A stretch of DNA of 64,000 nucleotides from Acidisoma sp. L85. Its GTDB lineage: Bacteria > Pseudomonadota > Alphaproteobacteria > Acetobacterales > Acetobacteraceae. A program made the position numbers and the translations under genes. Location of the stretch: positions 123,968-187,967 of the forward strand of contig NZ_LMUQ01000026.1 in NCBI RefSeq assembly GCF_009765865.1, read 5' to 3'. This document shows, one piece after another, positions 8,361 through 44,880 of this stretch. The notes beneath the pieces are model-generated. The model was not told the DNA's origin. It ran no database searches and saw nothing but the letters and a program-made list of their open reading frames with translations. How positions within the stretch are numbered: position 1 is the stretch's first letter; every line of letters starts with the position of its first letter.

Positions 8361-8450
8361 ATGGCATGCGCAGGCATGCCATCCACGCCTTGCCTTCGTC
8401 GCGCAGTCAAAGGCGTGGATGCTCGGCCTCCGCCGAGCATGACGTGTCGG
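8361..8450. repeat. Dispersed palindromic intergenic repeat, copy 1
   Basis: Three nested or adjacent stems: GGCATGC/GCATGCC at the left, ATCCACGCCTT pairing with AAAGGCGTGGAT, and the tight hairpin GCTCGGCCTCCGCCGAGC followed by ATGACG. The same arrangement recurs near 23.1, 24.2 and 44.8 kb, always between genes. It lies between the speE stop and the end of a convergent gene. Confidence 0.8.
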
Positions 8451-34201: not shown

Positions 34202-34720
34202 ATGAGTGACGGTTCGGCCAGCTTCCTGATGCTCGCGGTCGGCAGTGCCACGCTTGCGCTCGCCCTTACCGATATCGCGGAGGTTCTTCCCACGCCGCGT
34301 CTCGCGCCTGTTACCTCGATGCCTTTCGTCGTGCGCGGGGTCTTCATGCTCGGCGGCAAACCCAAGGTGGTCATCGATCTGGCGCGCCTGCTCGATCTCG
34401 CGGAAATTGACCAGAACGGCTTGTTCCATCACCACATCCTTTTGCCGAGGAATGCCGAGGACGTCGCTGACGCGGCAATTCTCGTTCGCCGCGCCACGGG
34501 CACGCGCACGGGAGTGATTTGCCCGCAGCCAGAGGAGGAAAGCTTCAACGGCTGCGTCGCCGCGAACGTCTCATTCGGCGACGATCTGATACCGCTGCTG
34601 TCGCTCGCGCGATTGCTGACGGCGTTGGAGCGGCAGCGTCTTGGCGAGTTTTCCCAGCGAGCGGCGGCCCGTGCATCCGGCTGGCCGTCCGCGCTGGATG
34701 AGAGCGCGGATGAAGGCTGA
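34202..34720 (+). CDS. cheW: CheW-like coupling protein (first)
   Basis: A 172-residue protein with a CheW fold: SFLMLAVGSATLALALTDIAEVLP at the start, VRGVFMLGGKPKVVIDLARLL in the middle, and DDLIPLLSLARLL near the end. CheW proteins bridge receptors and CheA at the membrane array. It starts the chemosensory operon and its end overlaps the CheR gene by 11 bases. In the Wsp system the equivalent position is WspB. Confidence 0.85.
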   Translation: MSDGSASFLMLAVGSATLALALTDIAEVLPTPRLAPVTSMPFVVRGVFMLGGKPKVVIDLARLLDLAEIDQNGLFHHHILLPRNAEDVADAAILVRRATGTRTGVICPQPEEESFNGCVAANVSFGDDLIPLLSLARLLTALERQRLGEFSQRAAARASGWPSALDESADEG

Positions 34721-36098
34721 AGAAGCGGCTTATAAGCGGCTGAAGCAGGCGGTCGTTGCCCACACTGGACACCATTACTACGACGACAAGGACGCTTTGC
34801 TGCGAAAGCGGCTCGACGAGCGGGCGCGCGAAGTCGGTGCTCCCAACCTTGCTGGTTATGAAACGGTGCTCGCGGACCCTGTGACCGGGGATGCCGAGTG
34901 GCGGGCGCTCGAAGCCGTAGTCACCGTCGGCGAGACCTTCTTTTTCCGCCACAGCGAGCAATTCGCTGTCTTGCGGGACACGATCCTTCCAAACCTCCTG
35001 AACGCCGCAACGAACCGTCGCCGGCTACGCATCTGGAGCGCCGGCTGCTCCACCGGTGCGGAACCTTATTCGCTTGCGATCCTGATCGAGCGGCTGCTCG
35101 GCGATGCCTTGCCCACATGGCGCGTGGACATCATCGGAACGGACATCAACGAGCAGGCGCTCGTCAATGCGCGCAAGGGCCGTTACAGCGCCTGGAGCTT
35201 GCGCGGGATGACCGATGTGGAACGTGCGCGCGATTTTGACGCTGACATTAGGCCCAGCGCATGGCGGCTGCATGAGCGGCACCGGCCAAGGGTCGAGTTC
35301 CGCCGCCACAACCTGCTCGATCTGCTGCCCGAGCCGCCGGCGGAGTGGAGAGGCTTCGACCTTATCCTTTGCCGCAACGTGTTGATTTACTTCGGCGCCC
35401 ATCAGGCGGCGCCGATGCTTTCAGCCTTGGGGCAATGCCTCTCGTCGGGTGGCTGGCTTATGATCGGATATTCTGATGCCCTGGCCGACATACCGCCGGA
35501 GCTTGACGTCGTCCAAATCGAGGCCACTCGGGTCTTCAGGCCGCGGGGCGTGACGAAACTCGCCGAGGTCCCAGCCGCTCTGCCCGAGCCTCCGGCGCCG
35601 GAATCCCACCGGCTTCCGCCGCGTCACGCACCGAGGCCGGCTGAGGCGCCGCAGCCTCGCGTGATCGCCTCGGCGCGCGCCGAGGATCGTGATCTGGACC
35701 GGATCAGAACTTTGGCTGACACCGGACGGCTGGAGGAGGCGGCGCTACGCTGTGCCGGGGCCTTGCAGGCCCACCCGCTCGACCATCGGCTCCATTACTA
35801 CGACGCGCTGCTCGCCCAAGCGGCCAGCGACCGAACCCGCGCGGAAGCGGCGTTGCGCCGTGCGATCTACCTCAGCAATGACATGGTGATGGCGCATTAC
35901 CATCTCGGCCTCCTGCTGCTTCAGGGCGGCGCGGCCGAGAGTGGCCGAAGGGTTATGAGCGTCGTCACGGAGCTTTGTCGCGCGGTGCCCGAGGACACGG
36001 TCTTGGAGGAAGGTGACGGCCTCCGCGCCGGCGACCTGCTCGCACGTGCGGTCTTGGCAGTCGAACCGGCGATGGTCGATCAGGCGTCGCAGCCGTGA
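34710..36098 (+). CDS. cheR: CheR-type methyltransferase with C-terminal TPR region
   Basis: A 462-residue receptor methyltransferase that adds methyl groups from S-adenosylmethionine to glutamates of the MCP. The N-terminal helical domain is residues 1-80; the Rossmann core has IWSAGCSTGAEPYSLAIL, the inserted beta-subdomain follows, and FDLILCRNVLIYF marks the catalytic end. After a Pro-rich linker (residues ~290-330), about 120 residues of helical repeats (RLEEAALRCAGALQAHPLDHRLHYYDALL) resemble TPRs, as in WspC. An ATG at 34698 is an alternative start. It overlaps the second cheW by four bases (GTGA). Confidence 0.92.
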   Translation: MKAEEAAYKRLKQAVVAHTGHHYYDDKDALLRKRLDERAREVGAPNLAGYETVLADPVTGDAEWRALEAVVTVGETFFFRHSEQFAVLRDTILPNLLNAATNRRRLRIWSAGCSTGAEPYSLAILIERLLGDALPTWRVDIIGTDINEQALVNARKGRYSAWSLRGMTDVERARDFDADIRPSAWRLHERHRPRVEFRRHNLLDLLPEPPAEWRGFDLILCRNVLIYFGAHQAAPMLSALGQCLSSGGWLMIGYSDALADIPPELDVVQIEATRVFRPRGVTKLAEVPAALPEPPAPESHRLPPRHAPRPAEAPQPRVIASARAEDRDLDRIRTLADTGRLEEAALRCAGALQAHPLDHRLHYYDALLAQAASDRTRAEAALRRAIYLSNDMVMAHYHLGLLLLQGGAAESGRRVMSVVTELCRAVPEDTVLEEGDGLRAGDLLARAVLAVEPAMVDQASQP

Positions 36099-36634
36099 GC
36101 ACAATACCGGCCCCTGACATGGGACAGCGGTCGTGGGAAGGCCGCGTGCTCGACGAACGCAGCCGGCGTCTGGCTGTGCGCGGCCTCAGCCAATCCGATC
36201 GGACGGCCGCCAGGGTCCACAGCCTCCTGGTATGGGAGGAAGGGAGTGAGCTGTATGGCATTCGTCCCGAGGAGGTCCGAGCCGTCCTGCCCTATGCCCG
36301 CTGCATGCCGATTATCAGCCGGCAGCCCTCCTGCATTGGCGTCTTGGGCTGGATGGGTGCCGTCTACAGCGTGATCGACAGCGCGCGCCTGTTTCAAGCA
36401 TCGAGCGAGCATCCGAGCGACGGGCATCTGCTCCTGCTCACCCATGAGAAGCCGTGTATTGGACTGCGGGTGCCCCAGGTGTTGGGTCTGATTTCCACCG
36501 CGCTTGGCAGTGACGAAGCCTCCGCTCTTGTCGCCGAGGGGGCGCATGAACTTTCGGGCCGTCCGGTCATGCCTATCGATACTGCCTTCCTCGCCGCGCG
36601 CTTGGGCCTGCCTGTCCCAATCCTTGGAGCCTAG
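36095..36634 (+). CDS. cheW: CheW-like coupling protein (second)
   Basis: A 179-residue CheW-fold protein starting with GTG in a four-base overlap with cheR. Core CheW strands are LLVWEEGSELYGIRPEEVRAVLPY, GVLGWMGAVYSVIDSARLF and HLLLLTHEKPCIGLRV. About 45 residues precede the domain, as in WspD. A second CheW alongside CheR-TPR is the hallmark of Wsp-like systems, in which the two coupling proteins are not interchangeable. Confidence 0.87.
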   Translation: MSTIPAPDMGQRSWEGRVLDERSRRLAVRGLSQSDRTAARVHSLLVWEEGSELYGIRPEEVRAVLPYARCMPIISRQPSCIGVLGWMGAVYSVIDSARLFQASSEHPSDGHLLLLTHEKPCIGLRVPQVLGLISTALGSDEASALVAEGAHELSGRPVMPIDTAFLAARLGLPVPILGA

Positions 36635-36640
36635 ACGATT

Positions 36641-38305
36641 GTGACCATCGCCACGCGCCTGCTTCTTGGTTTTGGGGTCAGCATCCTTCTGCTGGTAGGC
36701 ATCGGGCTTTTCAGCCTTTGGGAGATTTCCAGCGTCCGCTATGCGACTGAGACGATCGTCGCACGCGACCTCGCCGCCTACCGCGCTCTGGGTCAGATCG
36801 CCGAGAGTCAGTCCAACATGAACGAGTCCCGCCGGGCCGCGGTGCTCGAGGCCATGATGCATCCTTCATCCGCAGTCGCCATCCATGCGGTCGCGACGCG
36901 GTGGGACGCCCAGGCGGACACGACGGAATCCCTGCTCGACCAGGCGATCACCACCACCGCGACCTACGAGCAAACCGCCCTCGACCCTGGCCGCCGATCC
37001 GCCTGGCAACAAACCGCCGAGCTCCTGCGGCAGGCACGGCTCCGCCTCCAGTCGCTCCGGGCTGGTTCGGACAAGCAATTCGACGATCTCGCGCGGAATG
37101 ATGCGGCCGGGGTCATGGCTGTCGAACCGAGCTTGATCTCACTGCGAGCGGACTTCGTCGTCACGCTGCGGCAGGCCGAGGATGCGCTCAACGTCGGCGT
37201 TGAGGCCGGGCAGCGGAGGATCGAGCTCATTTACAATACGAGCCGGACTTCGCTGATTGTCGCCGCAGCCGGCGCGGCCCTGCTGTGTCTGTTGATGACC
37301 TTCCTCATCCAGCGCTCGATCGTCCGGCCATTGGCGCGCTACGTGCGTTTCGCTGAGGTGGTGGGACAGGGCGATCTCACGACGCCGCCCACACGCGCGG
37401 GGCATGATGAGCTGGGCCGCCTCGGCGGAACGCTCAACGCGATGGTGACTGGGCTGCGGCAGTTGGCGGTGCAGACGCGCGATGTGACGCGCAACCTCAA
37501 CGCCGCTGCCGCCGAAATCCGCGCCTCCACGCAGGAACAGGCGGCTAGCGTCGAGCAGCAACTTGCGGCGATCCAGGAGACGGCGGCGACCGCCGATGAA
37601 ATCACCCATTCCGGCACCCGCATCGCGCGCCGCGCCGAGGAGGTGATCGTCGCGGCTGAGGCCGCCACCCAGCGGAGCGCCAGCGGACTGCAGGCGGTGG
37701 TCGAGACCGCGCGCGCGATGGAACTCATTCGCGACCAGGGCGGCATGGTCGCGGGCAATATCGTGGCGCTCAGCGAGAAGACCCAGGCGATCGGCGACAT
37801 CATCATGGTCGTCAACGACATCGCGGAGCGCTCGCATTTGCTCGCCCTCAATGCGGCGATCGAGGCCGCCGCGGCTGGTGAAAAGGGCCGCAGCTTCGCG
37901 GTGGTCGCCTCCGAGATGAAGATCCTGGCGGATCAGGCGAAGGAGGCGACGGTGCAGGTGCGCTCCATCCTCGGCGAAATCCAGCGCGGCATAAACACTT
38001 CGGTGATGCTGGCCGAGGAGCAGGTCAAGCGCGTCGCCTCCGGTAAGGAGCGTACTGACCTCACGCATCGCGCGATCGAGGAAATCACCGGCAGCGTGCG
38101 GGAGAGCGTGCAGACCTTCCAGCAGATCGTTGCCTCCACCAACCAACAGCAGATCGGTGTGGAGCAGGTGATGACGGCACTGCAAAGCATCCGCCAGGCG
38201 AGCCAGCAGACTGCCGCCGGGACCCGGCAACTGGACTCTGCCGCGGGCAATCTCACCGAGTTGTCGCACCAGCTCGTGGCCCTCGCGGACCGCTACCGGG
38301 TGTGA
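36641..38305 (+). CDS. Methyl-accepting chemotaxis protein
   Basis: A 554-residue receptor. Membrane helix 1 spans residues ~6-27, a ~175-residue mostly helical periplasmic domain (four-helix-bundle type) follows, helix 2 is ~204-224, then a HAMP domain (IVRPLARYVRFAEVVGQGDL) and the cytoplasmic signalling hairpin with the tip DIAERSHLLALNAAIEAAAAGEKGRSF split around residue 392. No C-terminal CheR-docking pentapeptide is seen. As the only receptor in the cluster it presumably feeds the CheA that follows; the stimulus is unknown. Starts with GTG six bases after cheW. Confidence 0.94.
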   Translation: MTIATRLLLGFGVSILLLVGIGLFSLWEISSVRYATETIVARDLAAYRALGQIAESQSNMNESRRAAVLEAMMHPSSAVAIHAVATRWDAQADTTESLLDQAITTTATYEQTALDPGRRSAWQQTAELLRQARLRLQSLRAGSDKQFDDLARNDAAGVMAVEPSLISLRADFVVTLRQAEDALNVGVEAGQRRIELIYNTSRTSLIVAAAGAALLCLLMTFLIQRSIVRPLARYVRFAEVVGQGDLTTPPTRAGHDELGRLGGTLNAMVTGLRQLAVQTRDVTRNLNAAAAEIRASTQEQAASVEQQLAAIQETAATADEITHSGTRIARRAEEVIVAAEAATQRSASGLQAVVETARAMELIRDQGGMVAGNIVALSEKTQAIGDIIMVVNDIAERSHLLALNAAIEAAAAGEKGRSFAVVASEMKILADQAKEATVQVRSILGEIQRGINTSVMLAEEQVKRVASGKERTDLTHRAIEEITGSVRESVQTFQQIVASTNQQQIGVEQVMTALQSIRQASQQTAAGTRQLDSAAGNLTELSHQLVALADRYRV

Positions 38306-38391
38306 GGCAGCAGAGGGATGAAGCCCGGCATTGATCTCTGGCTTTTGCAGAGCATTGCGGTGGTGTTTGCGTTGGAAAGCGGCGCGGTGCG

Positions 38392-40485
38392 GTGAAGGAT
38401 ATCCAAACAGAGCTGCTCGCCGCCTTTGATGCGGAATATCGCGAGCATTTGGCGGTCGTGCGGCACGGTCTCGACATTGCCCGAAGCGGGCAGCCCCCGG
38501 ATCTTAAGGATATGTTTCGGCGCATTCATTCGCTGAAGGGCGCGGCCCGTGCCGTCGGCCGGCCCGAGGTCGAACATCGCGCGCATGATCTCGAAGCTCT
38601 ACTTGCCGCGCTGCTCGATGGCGAAACCCGTCTCGATGAAGGAGCAGCCTCGGCAATCGAAGATGCGCTGGACGCAATCGCGCAAGTCGCCGCCGCTGTG
38701 CCCGACATCAAAGCCGAACCCGAGAGCGTGGACACGGCCGCCGCCTCGATCGATCTCCTCCGCATCAATGGCGCGCGCCTCGCGGCCGTCGGTACCAACG
38801 CGCAGCAAGTCGCGCGGGCTGCCGAGCGACACGAGCATCTCGAAGAGCGGCTCGACGCGATCGCCCGCTCGACGCGCCGGGCGACGCAGCTGCTGACTCC
38901 CTTGTTGCGTGCGGCGTCTCCGTCACCCACGCTGCTCCACCTCGCGCAGGAACTTCGGCAATCGGCGCGGCAGGTGACGGAGGCACGGCGGCAGTATCAG
39001 GACACCGCCTGGGCACTGGACCAATCCGTCTCGACGCTGCTTGGCGGCATCGAGGCGCTCAGTCTCGTCACCGCCGAAACCGTCTTCGGAAATCCAGCGC
39101 GGATGCTGCGCGACCTGGCCCAGGAGGAGGGTGTCGAGGTCGCACCAATCGTCGAGGGTCTGGATCTGCAGGCGGATCGCAGGGTGTTGCAGGCGCTCAA
39201 GGATCCCGTGATCCAGCTACTGCGGAACGCCGTCAGTCATGGTGCCGAGGTGCCGCCACGCCGCCGCGCGCGCGGGCGTCCGGACGCGGCTGAGATCGGC
39301 CTCGCTTTTGTCCGCGACGCTGATCGGCTGCGCGTGACCGTGACCGATGACGGGCCGGGCCCCGACCTCACGGCAATCCGCAGGCGCGCCGTGAACGCCG
39401 GCCTCATTTCGACGGAAGCCGCGGCCAGCGCCAGCCGCGAGACTATCCTCTCCTTCGTCTTCGAGGCGGGCTTCTCGACCCGCGCGGATGCGGATGCTTT
39501 GGCCGGGCGCGGCCTCGGCCTCTCCATCGTCGCCGAGGCGGCGCGTGCGCTGCGAGGAACCGCGAGCCTCCTGCCGCGCGCCGGCGGCGGAACGGTCGTC
39601 GAGATCAACGTCCCGTTGTCGGTGGCGCGTGAATCGGTGCTGCTGCTCGACTGCGGTGTCGGCTATGTCGTCGGCCTGCCCAGCCTCGCGGTGGAACGGC
39701 TCGTTCGCCTCCCCGCGTCCCGCATCGAGCGTCGGGCCGGTCATCCCGTGTTGCGGCCAGACCCTGACAGCGCGGACGCCATTCCGCTGATCGCGCTTCG
39801 CCGATTGCTCGGCCTCGGCGGTGAGGAATTGCCGATGCCGGAAGGCAGCCTGCTGTTGGTGCAGCTACGCAAGACCGGCGGAGGGTCTTTGGCGATCGTG
39901 GTCGACGCTCTGAGGGACGTGCGCTCGATGCTCGTGCATGCCGCGGAGGTCGTCGGCCTCGACACCGAACTCGTACAGGGCTTCGTGTTTCTGGAGCAGG
40001 AGCGGCCAGCGATGCTGCTGTCACCCCCTGGCCTGCTCGCGCGCTGGCAACGCCTCGTGGAACATGGCCCGCAAGTGGCGGCTCAGGCGGAGGTGCAGGC
40101 CGGCCCAAGGCCGGCCGCCCGCCGGACGATCCTGGTGGTCGATGACTCGATCACCACGCGGACTCTCGAAAAGAGCATCTTGGAAGCGAATGGCTATCAC
40201 GTTCTTGTCGCGGTCGACGGGATAGAGGGATTGGAGGTTCTGCGATCGGATGCCGTGGTTGACATGGTGCTGGCCGATATCGAAATGCCCCGCATGGATG
40301 GCTTCGCCCTGCTGGAAGCGATGAGGAAGGATTCGGCTCTGGCCGCGATCCCCGTCATTGTCATGACCTCGCGCGCCGCCGCCGCTGATATCCGTCGTGG
40401 CCTCGATCTCGGCGCCAACGCCTATATAGCTAAACAGAGCTTCGACCAGCGCGACCTGCTGCAAACCATCGGCAGGCTGTTATGA
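38392..40485 (+). CDS. cheA: CheA-type histidine kinase with C-terminal receiver domain
   Basis: A 697-residue hybrid kinase. The Hpt domain carries His46 in RRIHSLKGAA; a helical region follows, then the ATPase (QLLRNAVSHGAE, VTDDGPGPDL, GRGLGLSIV), a CheW-like domain (SVLLLDCGVGYVVGLP-like region near residue 410), and a receiver domain from ~578 with phospho-acceptor Asp629 in VLADIEMPRMDG and Lys in YIAKQ. This Hpt-kinase-CheW-REC layout is that of WspE and of CheA3-type kinases. The GTG start follows an 86-base gap after the MCP; its end overlaps cheB (ATGA). Confidence 0.93.
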   Translation: MKDIQTELLAAFDAEYREHLAVVRHGLDIARSGQPPDLKDMFRRIHSLKGAARAVGRPEVEHRAHDLEALLAALLDGETRLDEGAASAIEDALDAIAQVAAAVPDIKAEPESVDTAAASIDLLRINGARLAAVGTNAQQVARAAERHEHLEERLDAIARSTRRATQLLTPLLRAASPSPTLLHLAQELRQSARQVTEARRQYQDTAWALDQSVSTLLGGIEALSLVTAETVFGNPARMLRDLAQEEGVEVAPIVEGLDLQADRRVLQALKDPVIQLLRNAVSHGAEVPPRRRARGRPDAAEIGLAFVRDADRLRVTVTDDGPGPDLTAIRRRAVNAGLISTEAAASASRETILSFVFEAGFSTRADADALAGRGLGLSIVAEAARALRGTASLLPRAGGGTVVEINVPLSVARESVLLLDCGVGYVVGLPSLAVERLVRLPASRIERRAGHPVLRPDPDSADAIPLIALRRLLGLGGEELPMPEGSLLLVQLRKTGGGSLAIVVDALRDVRSMLVHAAEVVGLDTELVQGFVFLEQERPAMLLSPPGLLARWQRLVEHGPQVAAQAEVQAGPRPAARRTILVVDDSITTRTLEKSILEANGYHVLVAVDGIEGLEVLRSDAVVDMVLADIEMPRMDGFALLEAMRKDSALAAIPVIVMTSRAAAADIRRGLDLGANAYIAKQSFDQRDLLQTIGRLL

Positions 40486-41567
40486 GCGGCGGCGCGCCGG
40501 CCTTGGGCAAGCCGGTGAGGGTGATGATCGTCGAGGATTCGCCCGTCGTGCAGGCGCTATTGCGCCACATCATTGCCGCTGATCCTCGCCTTGAGCTGGT
40601 CGCCACCCTGTCCTCAGCGGAGGACGCATTGGCGGCTCTGCCGCTTGTCAGGCCCGATGTCATCTCGATGGATATCCGACTTCCAGGCATGGATGGGCTG
40701 GAGGCGACGCGGCTCATCATGACGCGTCAGCCTACACCGATCGTGGTGATCGCCGACGCGGTTGCGGACCTTTCTCTGATGATCTCGATGAACGCCCTGC
40801 GGGCAGGGGCGCTGGCCGTGGTCGAGAAGCCCGCAGGCTTCAGCCATCACGGCCATAACACGATCGCCGAGACCATTCGCACACAGCTTTTTATCATGAG
40901 TCAGGTGCCCGTCATCCGGCAGCGCGCGTTCCGACCTTCCGGCTCTACCAGAGCGTCTCGGTTGCCGCCGGGCGGCCAGGCAGGCCTCGTGCGGCCGAGG
41001 ATAGTGGCCATCGTCGCATCGACGGGGGGACCGAGCGCGCTTGCCCGTTTGCTGAGCGCATTGCCGGTTGATTTCCCGCTTCCCGTTCTCGTCGTGCAGC
41101 ATATGGGCACGCCGTTTCTCGCGGGCTTCGCCGCCTGGCTCGACAGCCTCGTCCCGCTCAAGGTGCGGATCGCCGTCGATGGTGAAGTGGCTGAACCCTC
41201 CATGGTCTATGTCGCGCCCGGCGACAGCCACCTGCGCCTCACACACGACGCCCGCCTTCGGCTGACGCTAGAGGGACCGGTCGCGGGACAGAGGCCATCG
41301 GGCACGGTTTTGTTCCGCTCGCTCGCCGAGGCGGCGGGGGCCGCTTCGCTCGGTGTGCTGCTTACTGGAATGGGCGAGGATGGCGCCGAGGGCTTGCTGG
41401 CGATGCGGCGGGCGGGGGCCACCACTTTGACGGAGGATGAGAGCACAGCGGTGGTCTTTGGCATGCCGCAGGCGGCGGTCCGCCTGGGTGCCTCCGCCCT
41501 CAGTCTGCCGCTCGACAGTATCGCCGGCGAGATGCTGCGGCTGACCGCCGGCCGCGACGGCCAATGA
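40482..41567 (+). CDS. cheB: Chemoreceptor glutamate methylesterase
   Basis: A 361-residue response regulator that removes receptor methyl groups. The receiver domain has Asp64 in ISMDIRLPGMDG and Lys in VVEKPAGF. The methylesterase triad is Ser180 (IVASTGGPSAL), His207 (VVQHMGTPF) and Asp300 (GMGEDGAEG). It opposes CheR and resets the receptor, as WspF does. It overlaps both neighbours by four bases (ATGA at each end). Confidence 0.95.
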   Translation: MSGGAPALGKPVRVMIVEDSPVVQALLRHIIAADPRLELVATLSSAEDALAALPLVRPDVISMDIRLPGMDGLEATRLIMTRQPTPIVVIADAVADLSLMISMNALRAGALAVVEKPAGFSHHGHNTIAETIRTQLFIMSQVPVIRQRAFRPSGSTRASRLPPGGQAGLVRPRIVAIVASTGGPSALARLLSALPVDFPLPVLVVQHMGTPFLAGFAAWLDSLVPLKVRIAVDGEVAEPSMVYVAPGDSHLRLTHDARLRLTLEGPVAGQRPSGTVLFRSLAEAAGAASLGVLLTGMGEDGAEGLLAMRRAGATTLTEDESTAVVFGMPQAAVRLGASALSLPLDSIAGEMLRLTAGRDGQ

Positions 41568-43282
41568 CTAGCCCCGCCATGCGCGTGCCCCATCTGCTGG
41601 TCGTCGAGGATTCCGAAACCCAGGCGCTCGCCATCCGCCGCATGTTGGAAGCAGCCGGCTTCACCGTGGATCGCGCTGGCTCGGCGGAAGCGGCGCTCGA
41701 TCAACTCAGCCGGCGCCTCCCCGATCTGGTCGTCGCCGATTATCATCTGCCGGGAATGAACGGCGGCGAGCTGTCGCGGCAGATCAGACTCGATACCCGA
41801 ACGAGGTCGCTGCCGCTCCTCATGCTCACCAATGCCTCGGAGCGGGAAACCGAGCGGGACGGGCTGGAGAGCGGCGCCGACGCTTATATCTCCAAGACCG
41901 CCGACCACGATCTCATGATCCTGCGCATCCGCGCGCTGCTGCGGCAGCGGCCCACGGTCGCAACGATGGAGGAGACTGACGGCAGCGCGGCCCCGCTTCG
42001 CCGCATCCATGTGCTGCTGCTCGACGATCCAGGCCTGTCCCGCGACAACGTGGCGGAGCTGCTGACCCGGGATGGCTATCGCATCGACGCCTTGGACGAT
42101 GCCACGGCGGCACTGGACCGATTGCGGGACACCGGGCGACCGATCGACTGCGTGCTCGTTGGGCTGCGCGCCTCAGGCTTTGACGGCATCGAGGCCTGTC
42201 GTCGCATCAACGCGCTACGTGAGCGCGCGGCGGAGGTTACGGCCGACGCGGCTGCGTTCCTCATCATCGGCATGGAGCGCGCCGAGGGCGGCGGCCGCGA
42301 TCTGTTGGCGCGCGCTTTCGATGCGGGGGTCGACGAGTGCATCCCGGCGCAGCCCGATCCCGGCGTCATGCGCGTGCGTATCCGAGCGGTCGTGCGCCGC
42401 AAGCTACTGCAGGACGACGCCCGCCGCAGCGTGGCCGAGCAGCGCGAGCACGCGCTGACCGAGCAGCGCGCCCGCATGACGGTCGCGCTTACGCAAGCAA
42501 ATCACGACCTCGAACAAGCCAACCAGAAACTGCGGGACACTCAGGCGAAGCTGGTGCAGGCGGCCAAGATGGCGTCGCTGGGCGAGCTGGTGGCCGGCAT
42601 CGCCCATGAGATCAACAATCCACTCGCCTTCATCTTGGCGCATCAGCACACCGTCGAGCGTCTACTCGGCCAGGTCGAACCCGAAGCCGCCGAGAATGCA
42701 CGGGTCGCCCGCACGATCGCCAAGGCGCGCGACCGGACCCAGGCAATGGGCACCGGACTGAAGCGCATACAGGACATTATTCTTAGCCTCCGGCGCTTCT
42801 CGCGCATGGATAGCGGCGGCTTCCAGCATGTCGATATCCCGGCGGGTCTCGACACCGTGCTGTTCCTGCTCGGCCCGAAACTCGGGGAGCGGATCGAGGT
42901 CACCCGGCATTATGAGGGTCCGCCGTCGCTGTGGTGCTCGCCGGCGCTGCTGAACCAGGTGGTGATGAATATCGTGAGCAATGCGGCGGATGCGATCGAG
43001 GGGAAAGGTTACATCGACATCTCCACCAAGGCCGACGAAGAATGGTATGAGATCGCCGTGGGTGACTCAGGGCCAGGCATCCCAGACGAAATTAGGAACC
43101 GGGTCTTCGAACCATTCTTCACGACCAAGGCAATAGGCTCGGGAACCGGCCTCGGCCTCGCCATCGCCTATAACGTGATCCAGTCGCATCAAGGGACCCT
43201 CGCTATCGAAACCTCGATTTACGGAGGTGCTGCCTTCATCATTCGTGTGCCGTTAGTTCCCCTAACATCGGTAAGCGCATGA
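41564..43282 (+). CDS. Hybrid histidine kinase with two N-terminal receiver domains (CheS-like)
   Basis: A 572-residue soluble protein. REC1 (residues ~8-127) is complete, with Asp59 in [12 protein letters not shown] and Lys in YISKT. REC2 (~147-280) keeps the fold but Gly200 occupies the phospho-acceptor position ([12 protein letters not shown]) and the conserved Lys is lost, so it is a pseudo-receiver. A coiled coil leads to a HisKA domain with His348 ([13 protein letters not shown]) and an ATPase domain ([28 protein letters not shown]). No membrane helix. It overlaps cheB by four bases, suggesting CheA phosphorylates REC1 to control this kinase, as proposed for CheS3 of Rhodospirillum centenum. 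Confidence 0.9.
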
Positions 43283-44745
43283 GCGCCGAATCTCGCGGCA
43301 TGATTCTCCTCGTCGATGACGAGCCCGAGATCCTGACCGCCCTCCGCGATTTGCTCGAAGACGAATATGACGTCTGGGCCGCAAACTCGCCGCAGGCCGC
43401 GTTGGAGATACTCCTTCAGGAGCCGGCGATTTCCGTCATCGTTTCCGATCAGCGGATGCCCGGAATGACCGGCGACGTGCTGCTCGCCAAGGCGCGCGGG
43501 ATTTCGGACGCGGAGTCGATATTGCTCACGGGCTATGCGGATCTCGACGCCGTGGTGAATGCGATCAACCTCGGCGGCATCTCGGGCTATGCACAAAAGC
43601 CTTGGGAGCCGGTGCTGCTGCTGAGCGTGATCGCCAATGCGCATGCGCAATGCCATTTGCGCCGCGCGTTGACGACCGAACAGGCGTTGCTGCGCGGCTT
43701 GATGGAAGGAAGCGAGGACGGCGTCTCCTTCAAGGATCGCGAGGGGCGCTTCGTGCGACTGAACGCCGCCAAAGCGTCGGCACTCGGCGGCGTCGCGGAG
43801 GATTGGATCGGCCGCCGCGAAATCGGCGAAACCGCCGAGGCGGATGACGTCGTGTTGTCCCTAGGACGCAATTCTCAGACGACCGAAGAACTGCCGATGC
43901 CGGAGGGCCCGCGCCTCTGGCAGGTAACGCGGGTTCCGGTACGGGCGGGGGATGGCAGGATCACCCACCTCGCGCGGCTCGAACATGACATCACCGATCG
44001 GCGGCGGATGGAGGCCCGGCTGCATCAGGCGGAAAAGATGCAGGCGCTTGGCACGATGGCGGGCGGCGTCGCGCATGACTTCAACAACCTTCTGACCGCG
44101 ATCCTGGGCAGCCTCGAATTGGCGGTGCGTCGCGTGACTGGAGACGAACGCGTGGAGCGGCTGTTGCGCAACGCCACATTGGCGGCGGAGCGCGGCACGT
44201 CCCTCACGCAGCGTCTTCTGAGCTTCAGCCGTCAACGGGATCTGGCACCTCGGTCGGTGGATGCCAATGCGCTGATCAGGCAGATGCAGGATCTTATACT
44301 GCGCAGTATTGGCGATGGTATCGAGATCGAGGAGGCGCTTGCGGCGGATCTTTGGCCGGCGCATGTCGATCCCGACCAGCTCGAACTCGCCGTGCTCAAC
44401 CTCTGTATCAATGCGCGCGACGCCATGCCCGCCGGTGGCCGCATCACCCTCGCCACGCGGAACCTTGGCGCCGTGGAGGAGGGGCTCGACCTTGTGCCGG
44501 GCGACTATGTGGTGGTGTCGGTCAGCGATACGGGAACCGGTATCCCGCCCGAAGTGCTGAGCCGTGTGTTCGAGCCTTTCTTCACGACGAAACCGATCGG
44601 CAAGGGCACCGGGCTCGGCCTATCCATGGTTTACGGGCTGGCGCAGCAAGCGGGCGGCGTCGCCCGCGTCACCAGCGCGACGGGACAGGGCACGACGGTC
44701 GAGATGCTGCTCCGCCGCTCCCACGAACCGCCAGAAGGGCGATGA
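43279..44745 (+). CDS. Receiver-PAS-histidine kinase
   Basis: A 488-residue soluble kinase, overlapping the previous gene by four bases. The receiver (residues 7-125) has Asp57 in IVSDQRMPGMTG and Lys in YAQKPWEP, of the HupR/RpfG-like subtype. A PAS-type domain spans ~130-245 (LMEGSEDGVSFKDREGRF). The HisKA motif has His266 (GGVAHDFNNLL), and the ATPase shows NLCINARDAMP, SDTGTGIPPEV and GTGLGLSMV. The HDFNN pattern is typical of kinases that form two-component relays with a separate regulator. It ends the chemosensory operon; no cognate DNA-binding regulator follows. Confidence 0.9.
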   Translation: MSAESRGMILLVDDEPEILTALRDLLEDEYDVWAANSPQAALEILLQEPAISVIVSDQRMPGMTGDVLLAKARGISDAESILLTGYADLDAVVNAINLGGISGYAQKPWEPVLLLSVIANAHAQCHLRRALTTEQALLRGLMEGSEDGVSFKDREGRFVRLNAAKASALGGVAEDWIGRREIGETAEADDVVLSLGRNSQTTEELPMPEGPRLWQVTRVPVRAGDGRITHLARLEHDITDRRRMEARLHQAEKMQALGTMAGGVAHDFNNLLTAILGSLELAVRRVTGDERVERLLRNATLAAERGTSLTQRLLSFSRQRDLAPRSVDANALIRQMQDLILRSIGDGIEIEEALAADLWPAHVDPDQLELAVLNLCINARDAMPAGGRITLATRNLGAVEEGLDLVPGDYVVVSVSDTGTGIPPEVLSRVFEPFFTTKPIGKGTGLGLSMVYGLAQQAGGVARVTSATGQGTTVEMLLRRSHEPPEGR

Positions 44746-44785: not shown

Positions 44786-44880
44786 CGTCGTGCTCGGCGA
44801 AGGCCGAGCATCCACGCCTTGCCTTCAGGGCCGCGAGCGAAGGCGTGGACCCTCGGCCTTCGCCAAGGATGACGGGCGGG
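44786..44880. repeat. Dispersed palindromic intergenic repeat, copy 4
   Basis: The most symmetrical copy: GTGCTCGGCGAAGGCCGAGC, then ATCCACGCCTTGCCTT, a short centre, GAAGGCGTGGAC and CCTCGGCCTTCGCC, then GGATGACG. The left half is nearly the reverse complement of the right, so the whole ~90 bases can fold into one long cruciform or into three hairpins. It lies between the kinase stop and the end of convergent msrA. Confidence 0.8.

Follow-up and report, generated by a model that had tools for sequence, protein, structure and literature searches.

For many chemosensory systems with alternative functions the output is not known. We analysed a cluster of chemosensory (che) genes with two adjoining histidine kinases, W7 and W8, on a stretch of 64,000 nucleotides (hereafter the window) of contig NZ_LMUQ01000026.1 of Acidisoma sp. 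L85, and the nearest published counterpart that we compare it with is the Che3 cluster of Rhodospirillum centenum. According to the published description of Che3, the two have in common a methyl-accepting chemotaxis protein (MCP), two CheW proteins, CheR, CheB, a CheA with a C-terminal receiver domain (REC), a hybrid kinase with a live first and a dead second receiver, and an output other than swimming (PMC3868531). The same study reports that CheA3 of R. centenum phosphorylates the first receiver (REC1) of this kinase, CheS3, and proposes that phosphorylation turns the CheS3 kinase off (PMC3868531). There are also differences: CheS3 carries a PAS domain and an HWE-type kinase and its cluster includes CheY3 (PMC3868531), whereas W7 has a HisKA-type kinase and no PAS domain, and the cluster in the window has no CheY gene and contains a second kinase of REC-PAS layout, W8, after W7. 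This likeness is set by the published description, not by sequence comparison. With PleD, W7 shares the tandem of a receiver and a pseudo-receiver and differs in carrying a kinase where PleD has its GGDEF domain. The Wsp system of Pseudomonas presumably has the same layout as the first six genes of the cluster. An earlier sequence-only reading of the window had described the cluster as Wsp-like up to this point and as Che3-like without CheY or WspR; the former comparison stands for the first six genes and goes no further, since the diguanylate cyclase of Wsp is absent from the eight genes and the cluster has no GGDEF domain, on which ground we reject membership in Wsp, and the latter is borne out in that neither a CheY nor a WspR is found among the eight proteins.

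Chemosensory genes with two adjacent kinases have been named in passing in Komagataeibacter xylinus E25 (H845_2129-2136) and Gluconacetobacter diazotrophicus (GDI3283-3293), and these clusters very probably are the same locus as that in the window; the passages that mention them neither propose a mechanism nor compare the receivers, and do not connect the genes with Che3. For Acetobacter pasteurianus Ab3, a published table contains two kinases of fitting size with neighbouring accessions, which may represent a W7-W8 pair without che genes. The gene cluster is already known; what is new is its reading as a relay and the pattern of orphaned receivers described below, neither of which was found in the accessible parts of the open-licence literature (PMC3868531, PMC4686702, PMC2765452, PMC5017713, PMC10782961, PMC12632262, PMC4618731).

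We propose, with a probability of roughly 0.7, that the cluster works in series, the signal passing from MCP and CheW through CheA to REC1 of W7, and from the W7 kinase through the receiver of W8 to the W8 kinase. Somewhat better than an even chance is given to the further idea that this relay has been stripped from its input end, each receiver losing its phosphate pocket and docking face with its donor while the kinases live on. If this is true, loss of a donor would be a natural origin of pseudo-receivers, of which W7 may offer a case, and the order of a relay and its docking residues would be readable from genomes. The natural deletion of CheA marks residues that CheA probably used and thus provides a testable wiring order and a candidate docking face.

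The W7 and W8 receivers with and without che genes

Relatives are labelled here by kinship codes for genus (g), genome (G) and locus (L), and the sampled family (f1) would be the Acetobacteraceae, judging from the earlier reading and two papers. W7 (41564..43282, + strand) was detected at E 1e-60 or better in 127 of the 397 sampled genomes of this family, representing 25 of 102 genera (G097 also has it, slightly under the cut), and the neighbourhoods of all 127 were inspected. W8 (43279..44745, + strand) lies on the same strand and at most 360 bases from W7 in 126 of them, the pair being broken in the remaining one (G153). The che genes stand directly upstream of W7 in 70 genomes from 11 genera, including two with a contig or frame break, and are present in 72 when two genomes that carry them on another contig are added; G371 and G316 (g17), where cheA or cheB is cut or split, were counted as che-bearing. 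At the locus of the other 55 genomes, from 12 genera, che genes are missing. A check for CheW domains in 58 genomes (these 55 together with G013, G025 and G076) found 24 with no CheW domain at all, all of which belong to the 55; in the remaining 31 che-less genomes CheW occurs at other sites, in most cases as a single CheW together with one CheA-sized frame.

The che genes are absent from an otherwise shared neighbourhood, as seen when flanks were compared with a simple gene caller at one or two loci per genus. In g84 the order is fam4, fam7, che genes, W7, W8, fam3, fam1, fam2, and in the che-less genera g23 and g109 it is fam4, fam7, W7, W8, fam3, fam1, fam2, with g62 differing from the latter by one extra frame. 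Parts of the order are kept in g26, g103, g78, g9 and g71, little or nothing of it is left in g31, g57, g14 and g85, and in g73 MCP and CheA alone stand between fam7 and W7. By their annotated representatives, fam3 is proteasome-type (HslV-like), fam1 an AAA protein (HslU-like), fam2 a SufE protein and fam4 an ABC ATPase; fam7 has no match. In a tree computed for 126 rows with the receiver columns excluded, the che state changes three times, the tree itself giving no direction. Loss is more likely than gain, as judged from these gene comparisons, because the full cluster occurs in other families and because remnants of CheB persist. As to the former, a Caulobacteraceae metagenome-assembled genome (L004) has the same gene order, although its second cheW was not detected, and cheA-cheB-W7-W8 is found in G434 and G676, likewise outside the family; L004 is the one locus used from a contig scan whose best 80 loci were mostly distant CheA, and in a class sample of 385 genomes, the window's own included, W7 was present in 8 (E 1e-45) and CheA in 10 (E 1e-50). 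As to the latter, three g31 genomes (L160, L180, L252) contain an open CheB-like frame upstream of W7 in which the three catalytic positions and the receiver pocket are changed in 3 of 3, and which would be a fossil or a re-used pseudo-CheB.

The fate of REC1 follows the presence of che. Among 70 che-linked rows, 69 have an intact phosphate pocket, made up of E15, D16, D59, T89 and K111 (E-D-D-T-K), and the seventieth (G323) has a frame break after a REC1 that is intact in its own frame; both genomes whose che genes lie on another contig have the pocket intact as well. Of the 55 che-less genomes 2 keep it intact, and the rest show 22 other patterns. All four residues of the signature D16-T19-L22-R25 are present in 66 of 71 che-bearing rows, five rows differing at one place, and in 0 of 54 che-less rows (the broken pair, L185, and L267 were left out of the column, signature and retention counts). 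Among the 159 W7 columns that are conserved with che, 11 have a genus-weighted retention below 65% without it: D16 (0.17), S17 (0.60), T19 (0.07), Q20 (0.58), L22 (0.18), R25 (0.08) and D59 (0.60) in REC1, and P426, L463, N464 and G554 in the kinase part. Residues 15-26 (41606..41641, + strand), which comprise the acid pair and the alpha1 stretch, score lowest among 152 runs of eight conserved columns, and in the predicted structure D16, S17, T19, Q20, L22 and R25 map to the loop that follows strand 1 and to the helix formed by residues 18-30. The loop after strand 1 and alpha1 are the region where receivers dock on their phosphate donors; the structure entry 4jav, titled for receiver changes at positions 13-21 that rewire an interface, presumably concerns the same helix. 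Since the REC1 pocket is kept with che and decayed without it, and since the decay falls on the donor-docking region, CheA very probably signals through REC1 of W7, as far as such comparisons of sequence can tell. The kinase motifs of W7 and W8 are intact in all readable rows.

The receiver of W8 behaves differently. All 125 readable rows, che-less ones included, have an intact pocket there (D-D-D-T/S-K), and one of the receiver's conserved columns decays without che (A121, 0.25), with R100 (0.67) and R73 (0.74) partly affected. Because the W8 receiver and the kinase cores remain intact where che is lost, W7 is the probable source of phosphate for W8, and the kinases would probably be arranged in series rather than as parallel outputs. 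This supports the earlier suggestion that the kinase pair is the output of the cluster in so far as CheA is the probable donor to W7, and speaks against its other half, in which both kinases, and hence W8 directly, receive phosphate from CheA. A genus without W7 gives a further lead. In g65, W8 is nearly full-length (38-43% identity) in 8 of 8 genomes, and W7 was not found in any of the 8 at E 1e-20. When the W8 acceptor was probed with a degenerate codon motif for S-D-Q-R-M-P, the same search matched inside W8 in 4 of 4 W7-bearing genomes vs 0 of 8 g65 genomes, where the sole stray match, in G322, lies outside W8. The motif is found in 120 of 126 W8 genes that occur with W7; five of the other six keep the Asp and the sixth is unreadable. 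Loss of the W8 acceptor following loss of W7 is suggested by this pattern as a lead, not as proof.

A putative series relay and the alternatives

The predicted architecture of W7 is compatible with a receiver that controls a kinase. Pfam finds HisKA and HATPase in its core and, up to E 1, no PAS domain, and the second receiver (REC2) taken alone matches Response_reg at E 1.9e-8. An AlphaFold2 model based on 20 aligned W7 proteins (mean predicted local distance difference test score (pLDDT) 83, predicted template modelling score (pTM) 0.54) has two complete receiver folds, REC2 being a full (beta-alpha)5 domain; a complete acceptor set is found in REC2 of none of the relatives tallied, in agreement with its earlier designation as a pseudo-receiver. 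Residues 266-375 form a single helix in the model, which continues the last helix of REC2 and includes the HisKA helix. The top Foldseek match is the Leptospira REC-kinase LvrB, which at a root-mean-square deviation (rmsd) of about 30 is not superposable as a whole, and the next is the REC-pseudoREC tandem of PleD (~300 columns, rmsd 4.4-5.7, TM-score by query ~0.4). On the model, W7 resembles a kinase to which a PleD-type stem has been joined.

In the relay as we envisage it, the ligand state at the MCP and CheW would control CheA, whose phosphate at His46 would be passed to Asp59 of REC1. Of 68 aligned rows 63 are readable at His46 and all 63 keep it, and the pocket of CheA's own receiver is intact in 68 of 68; that receiver probably serves as a phosphate sink, as proposed for CheA3 of R. 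centenum. REC1 and the pseudo-receiver would form a PleD-like tandem that feeds the continuous helix into the W7 kinase, and phosphorylated REC1 would most likely switch this kinase off. We hold the view of REC1 as a brake with moderate confidence, on account of the analogy with CheS3 and because the W7 kinase persists where CheA has been lost. W7 would then phosphorylate W8 at Asp57 of its N-terminal receiver. This receiver would stand in for CheY3 and is joined to the second, PAS-containing kinase. Of the models matched by the W8 core, PRK13557 and CckA score highest, though under their cut-offs. W8 would signal to a further partner, perhaps through a C-terminal receiver in most other genera and directly in the window's genus. 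Such a receiver is absent from W8 in the five sampled genomes of the window's genus, is shown by Pfam in G020 and G007 and, judged by tail length, is present in most genera and missing in 22 of 126 rows (g1, g14, g57, g80, g95). Given this variability, the last step of the relay probably differs between genera.

Several observations weigh against a relay of this kind. Of the 55 che-less rows 18 retain Asp59, and 10 of these depart from the full pocket by D16 to E alone (EEDTK), a pocket that may still work. Two che-less genomes (G026 and G106), which have no CheW at all, keep the full pocket, with T19 changed in both. Decay is sharpest at D16 and alpha1 and is not even over the pocket: in genus-weighted counts without che E15, T89 and K111 are retained at 0.76-0.87, and the five pocket columns average 0.64 vs 0.82 for the other conserved REC1 columns. 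Agreement between paired rows averages 2.9 out of 3, but with the che state changing three times formal significance is out of reach. Transfer from W7 to W8 rests on adjacency, retention and the motif test in one genus, in which a match can fail through a neighbouring codon and which scores motifs, not residues; W8 could phosphorylate its own receiver or draw phosphate from another kinase.

But might CheA phosphorylate the receivers of W7 and W8 in parallel? The genes of both kinases overlap in one run with cheA and cheB, and both N-terminal receivers are intact in che-bearing genomes, as such an arrangement would predict. However, the pocket and alpha1 columns of the W8 receiver are kept in genomes that do not have this CheA and must there be maintained by something else, which makes parallel outputs unlikely. 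We consider it less likely still that the decay of REC1 merely reflects the rapid evolution of small genomes and has no bearing on CheA. The che-less genomes are indeed small (1.9-3.9 Mb), many of them sit on long branches in a tree of 59 of the 126 rows, the che state changes three times only, and the remaining REC1 columns are themselves somewhat less well kept (0.82) than the columns of the kinase parts (0.91-1.00). Yet this last figure stands beside the 0.93-0.99 retained by conserved columns of the W8 receiver, the decay sits in the pocket and alpha1 of REC1, and in g73 (3.5 Mb), which has kept CheA in a partial cluster (MCP-CheA-W7-W8), the REC1 pocket is intact. Finally, the Wsp-like layout of the first six genes and the resemblance of REC1-REC2 to the PleD stem would suit a system whose real output is a distant GGDEF protein, with the kinases as side branches. 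There are zero GGDEF domains among the eight proteins, a distant GGDEF partner not having been searched for, and the kinases are the very part that remains after loss of che; we regard this explanation as highly improbable. We thus favour the series relay from CheA through W7 to W8 over these alternatives.

Anatomy and genomic context of the cluster

The eight open reading frames of the cluster (window positions 34202-44745) all lie on the + strand in the order cheW-cheR-cheW-MCP-cheA(REC)-cheB-W7-W8, and reading frames and Pfam domains agree with what the sequence-only reading had placed there. The first cheW (W1, 34202..34720, +; CheW E 3.8e-10) is followed by cheR (W2, 34710..36098, +; CheR E 2.9e-45), whose ATG at 34710 is in the frame of a mechanical reading frame starting at the TTG at 34641. 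The C-terminal part of CheR may be TPR-like: in the predicted model residues 343-482 form helical hairpins stacked like TPR repeats (pLDDT mostly >90), and Pfam gives a weak match (TPR_11, E 0.095). Next come the second cheW (W3, 36095..36634, +; CheW E 1.7e-9) and the MCP gene (W4, 36641..38305, +), which encodes a four-helix sensor, HAMP and the signalling domain (4HB_MCP_1, HAMP and MCPsignal in Pfam). CheA (W5, 38392..40485, +) comprises Hpt (His46), HATPase, CheW and a C-terminal receiver (Asp629), with no P2 domain detected by Pfam, and CheB (W6, 40482..41567, +) a receiver and a methylesterase. W7 combines REC1 (Asp59), pseudo-REC2, the long helix, HisKA (His348) and HATPase, as seen from Pfam and the model, and domain searches of the CckA-like W8 find a receiver (Asp57), PAS, HisKA (His266) and HATPase. 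The letters at the junctions also agree with the tight coupling noted before: overlaps of 11 bases (cheW/cheR) and 4 bases (cheR/second cheW), a gap of 6 bases before the MCP gene and 4-base overlaps at each junction from cheA through W8, the exception being the 86 bases between MCP and cheA.

The comparison of gene order that the earlier reading had called for found the same eight-gene order in the four other sampled genomes of the genus and detected all eight genes in 42 of 127 related loci, a recurrence that rules out a chance arrangement. Loci short of eight genes would mostly reflect a low-scoring small cheW or a contig end. In G013 cheB is seemingly split between two contig ends, and in G025 the che genes lie on another contig than the kinase pair, which is found on contig C65 together with a CheW domain near the start of that contig. 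In G025 cheB overlaps the gene of an Era-type GTPase by four bases (L118:7771-9770); we do not take this GTPase as an output, the kinase pair of that genome being on C65. In G076 (L166, g73) the CheA that adjoins W7 has no Pfam match to a CheW domain and the locus has no homologue of the window's CheW, CheR or CheB, so that receptor and CheA form a pair that lacks the usual couplers. A genome of another family has a W7-like gene ~7 kb upstream of a CheA gene on the same strand (G747:C4:166353-176596; L275, L284).

All three CheW domains of the Acidisoma genome are inside the cluster, which is therefore the only CheW-bearing system found there, and no flagellin was found in this genome. Flagellar chemotaxis is rejected for this genome on these grounds. 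Flagellin is present in 52 of 72 che-bearing relatives, so the cluster is independent of flagella without being exclusive with them. The control of development, biofilm or stress that the earlier reading had suggested is a candidate function. The earlier statement that CheY and flagellar genes are missing thus holds for the cluster and, as regards flagellin, for the genome; no CheY gene is among the eight, and a lone CheY elsewhere in the genome was not searched for. A CheY or GGDEF regulator directly downstream in relatives, which the earlier reading had regarded as contrary to its proposal, is not among the three commonest downstream families (15-17 of 25 genera), these being the HslV-like, HslU-like and SufE proteins.

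The next gene 3' of the operon in the window is msrA, on the other strand. Just 3' of the operon lies a palindromic repeat (44786-44874), whose half-site occurs with at most three mismatches at window positions 8422, 23182, 24304, 44786 and 44852 and zero times in shuffled sequences, and which is probably an element of the repetitive extragenic palindromic (REP) type.

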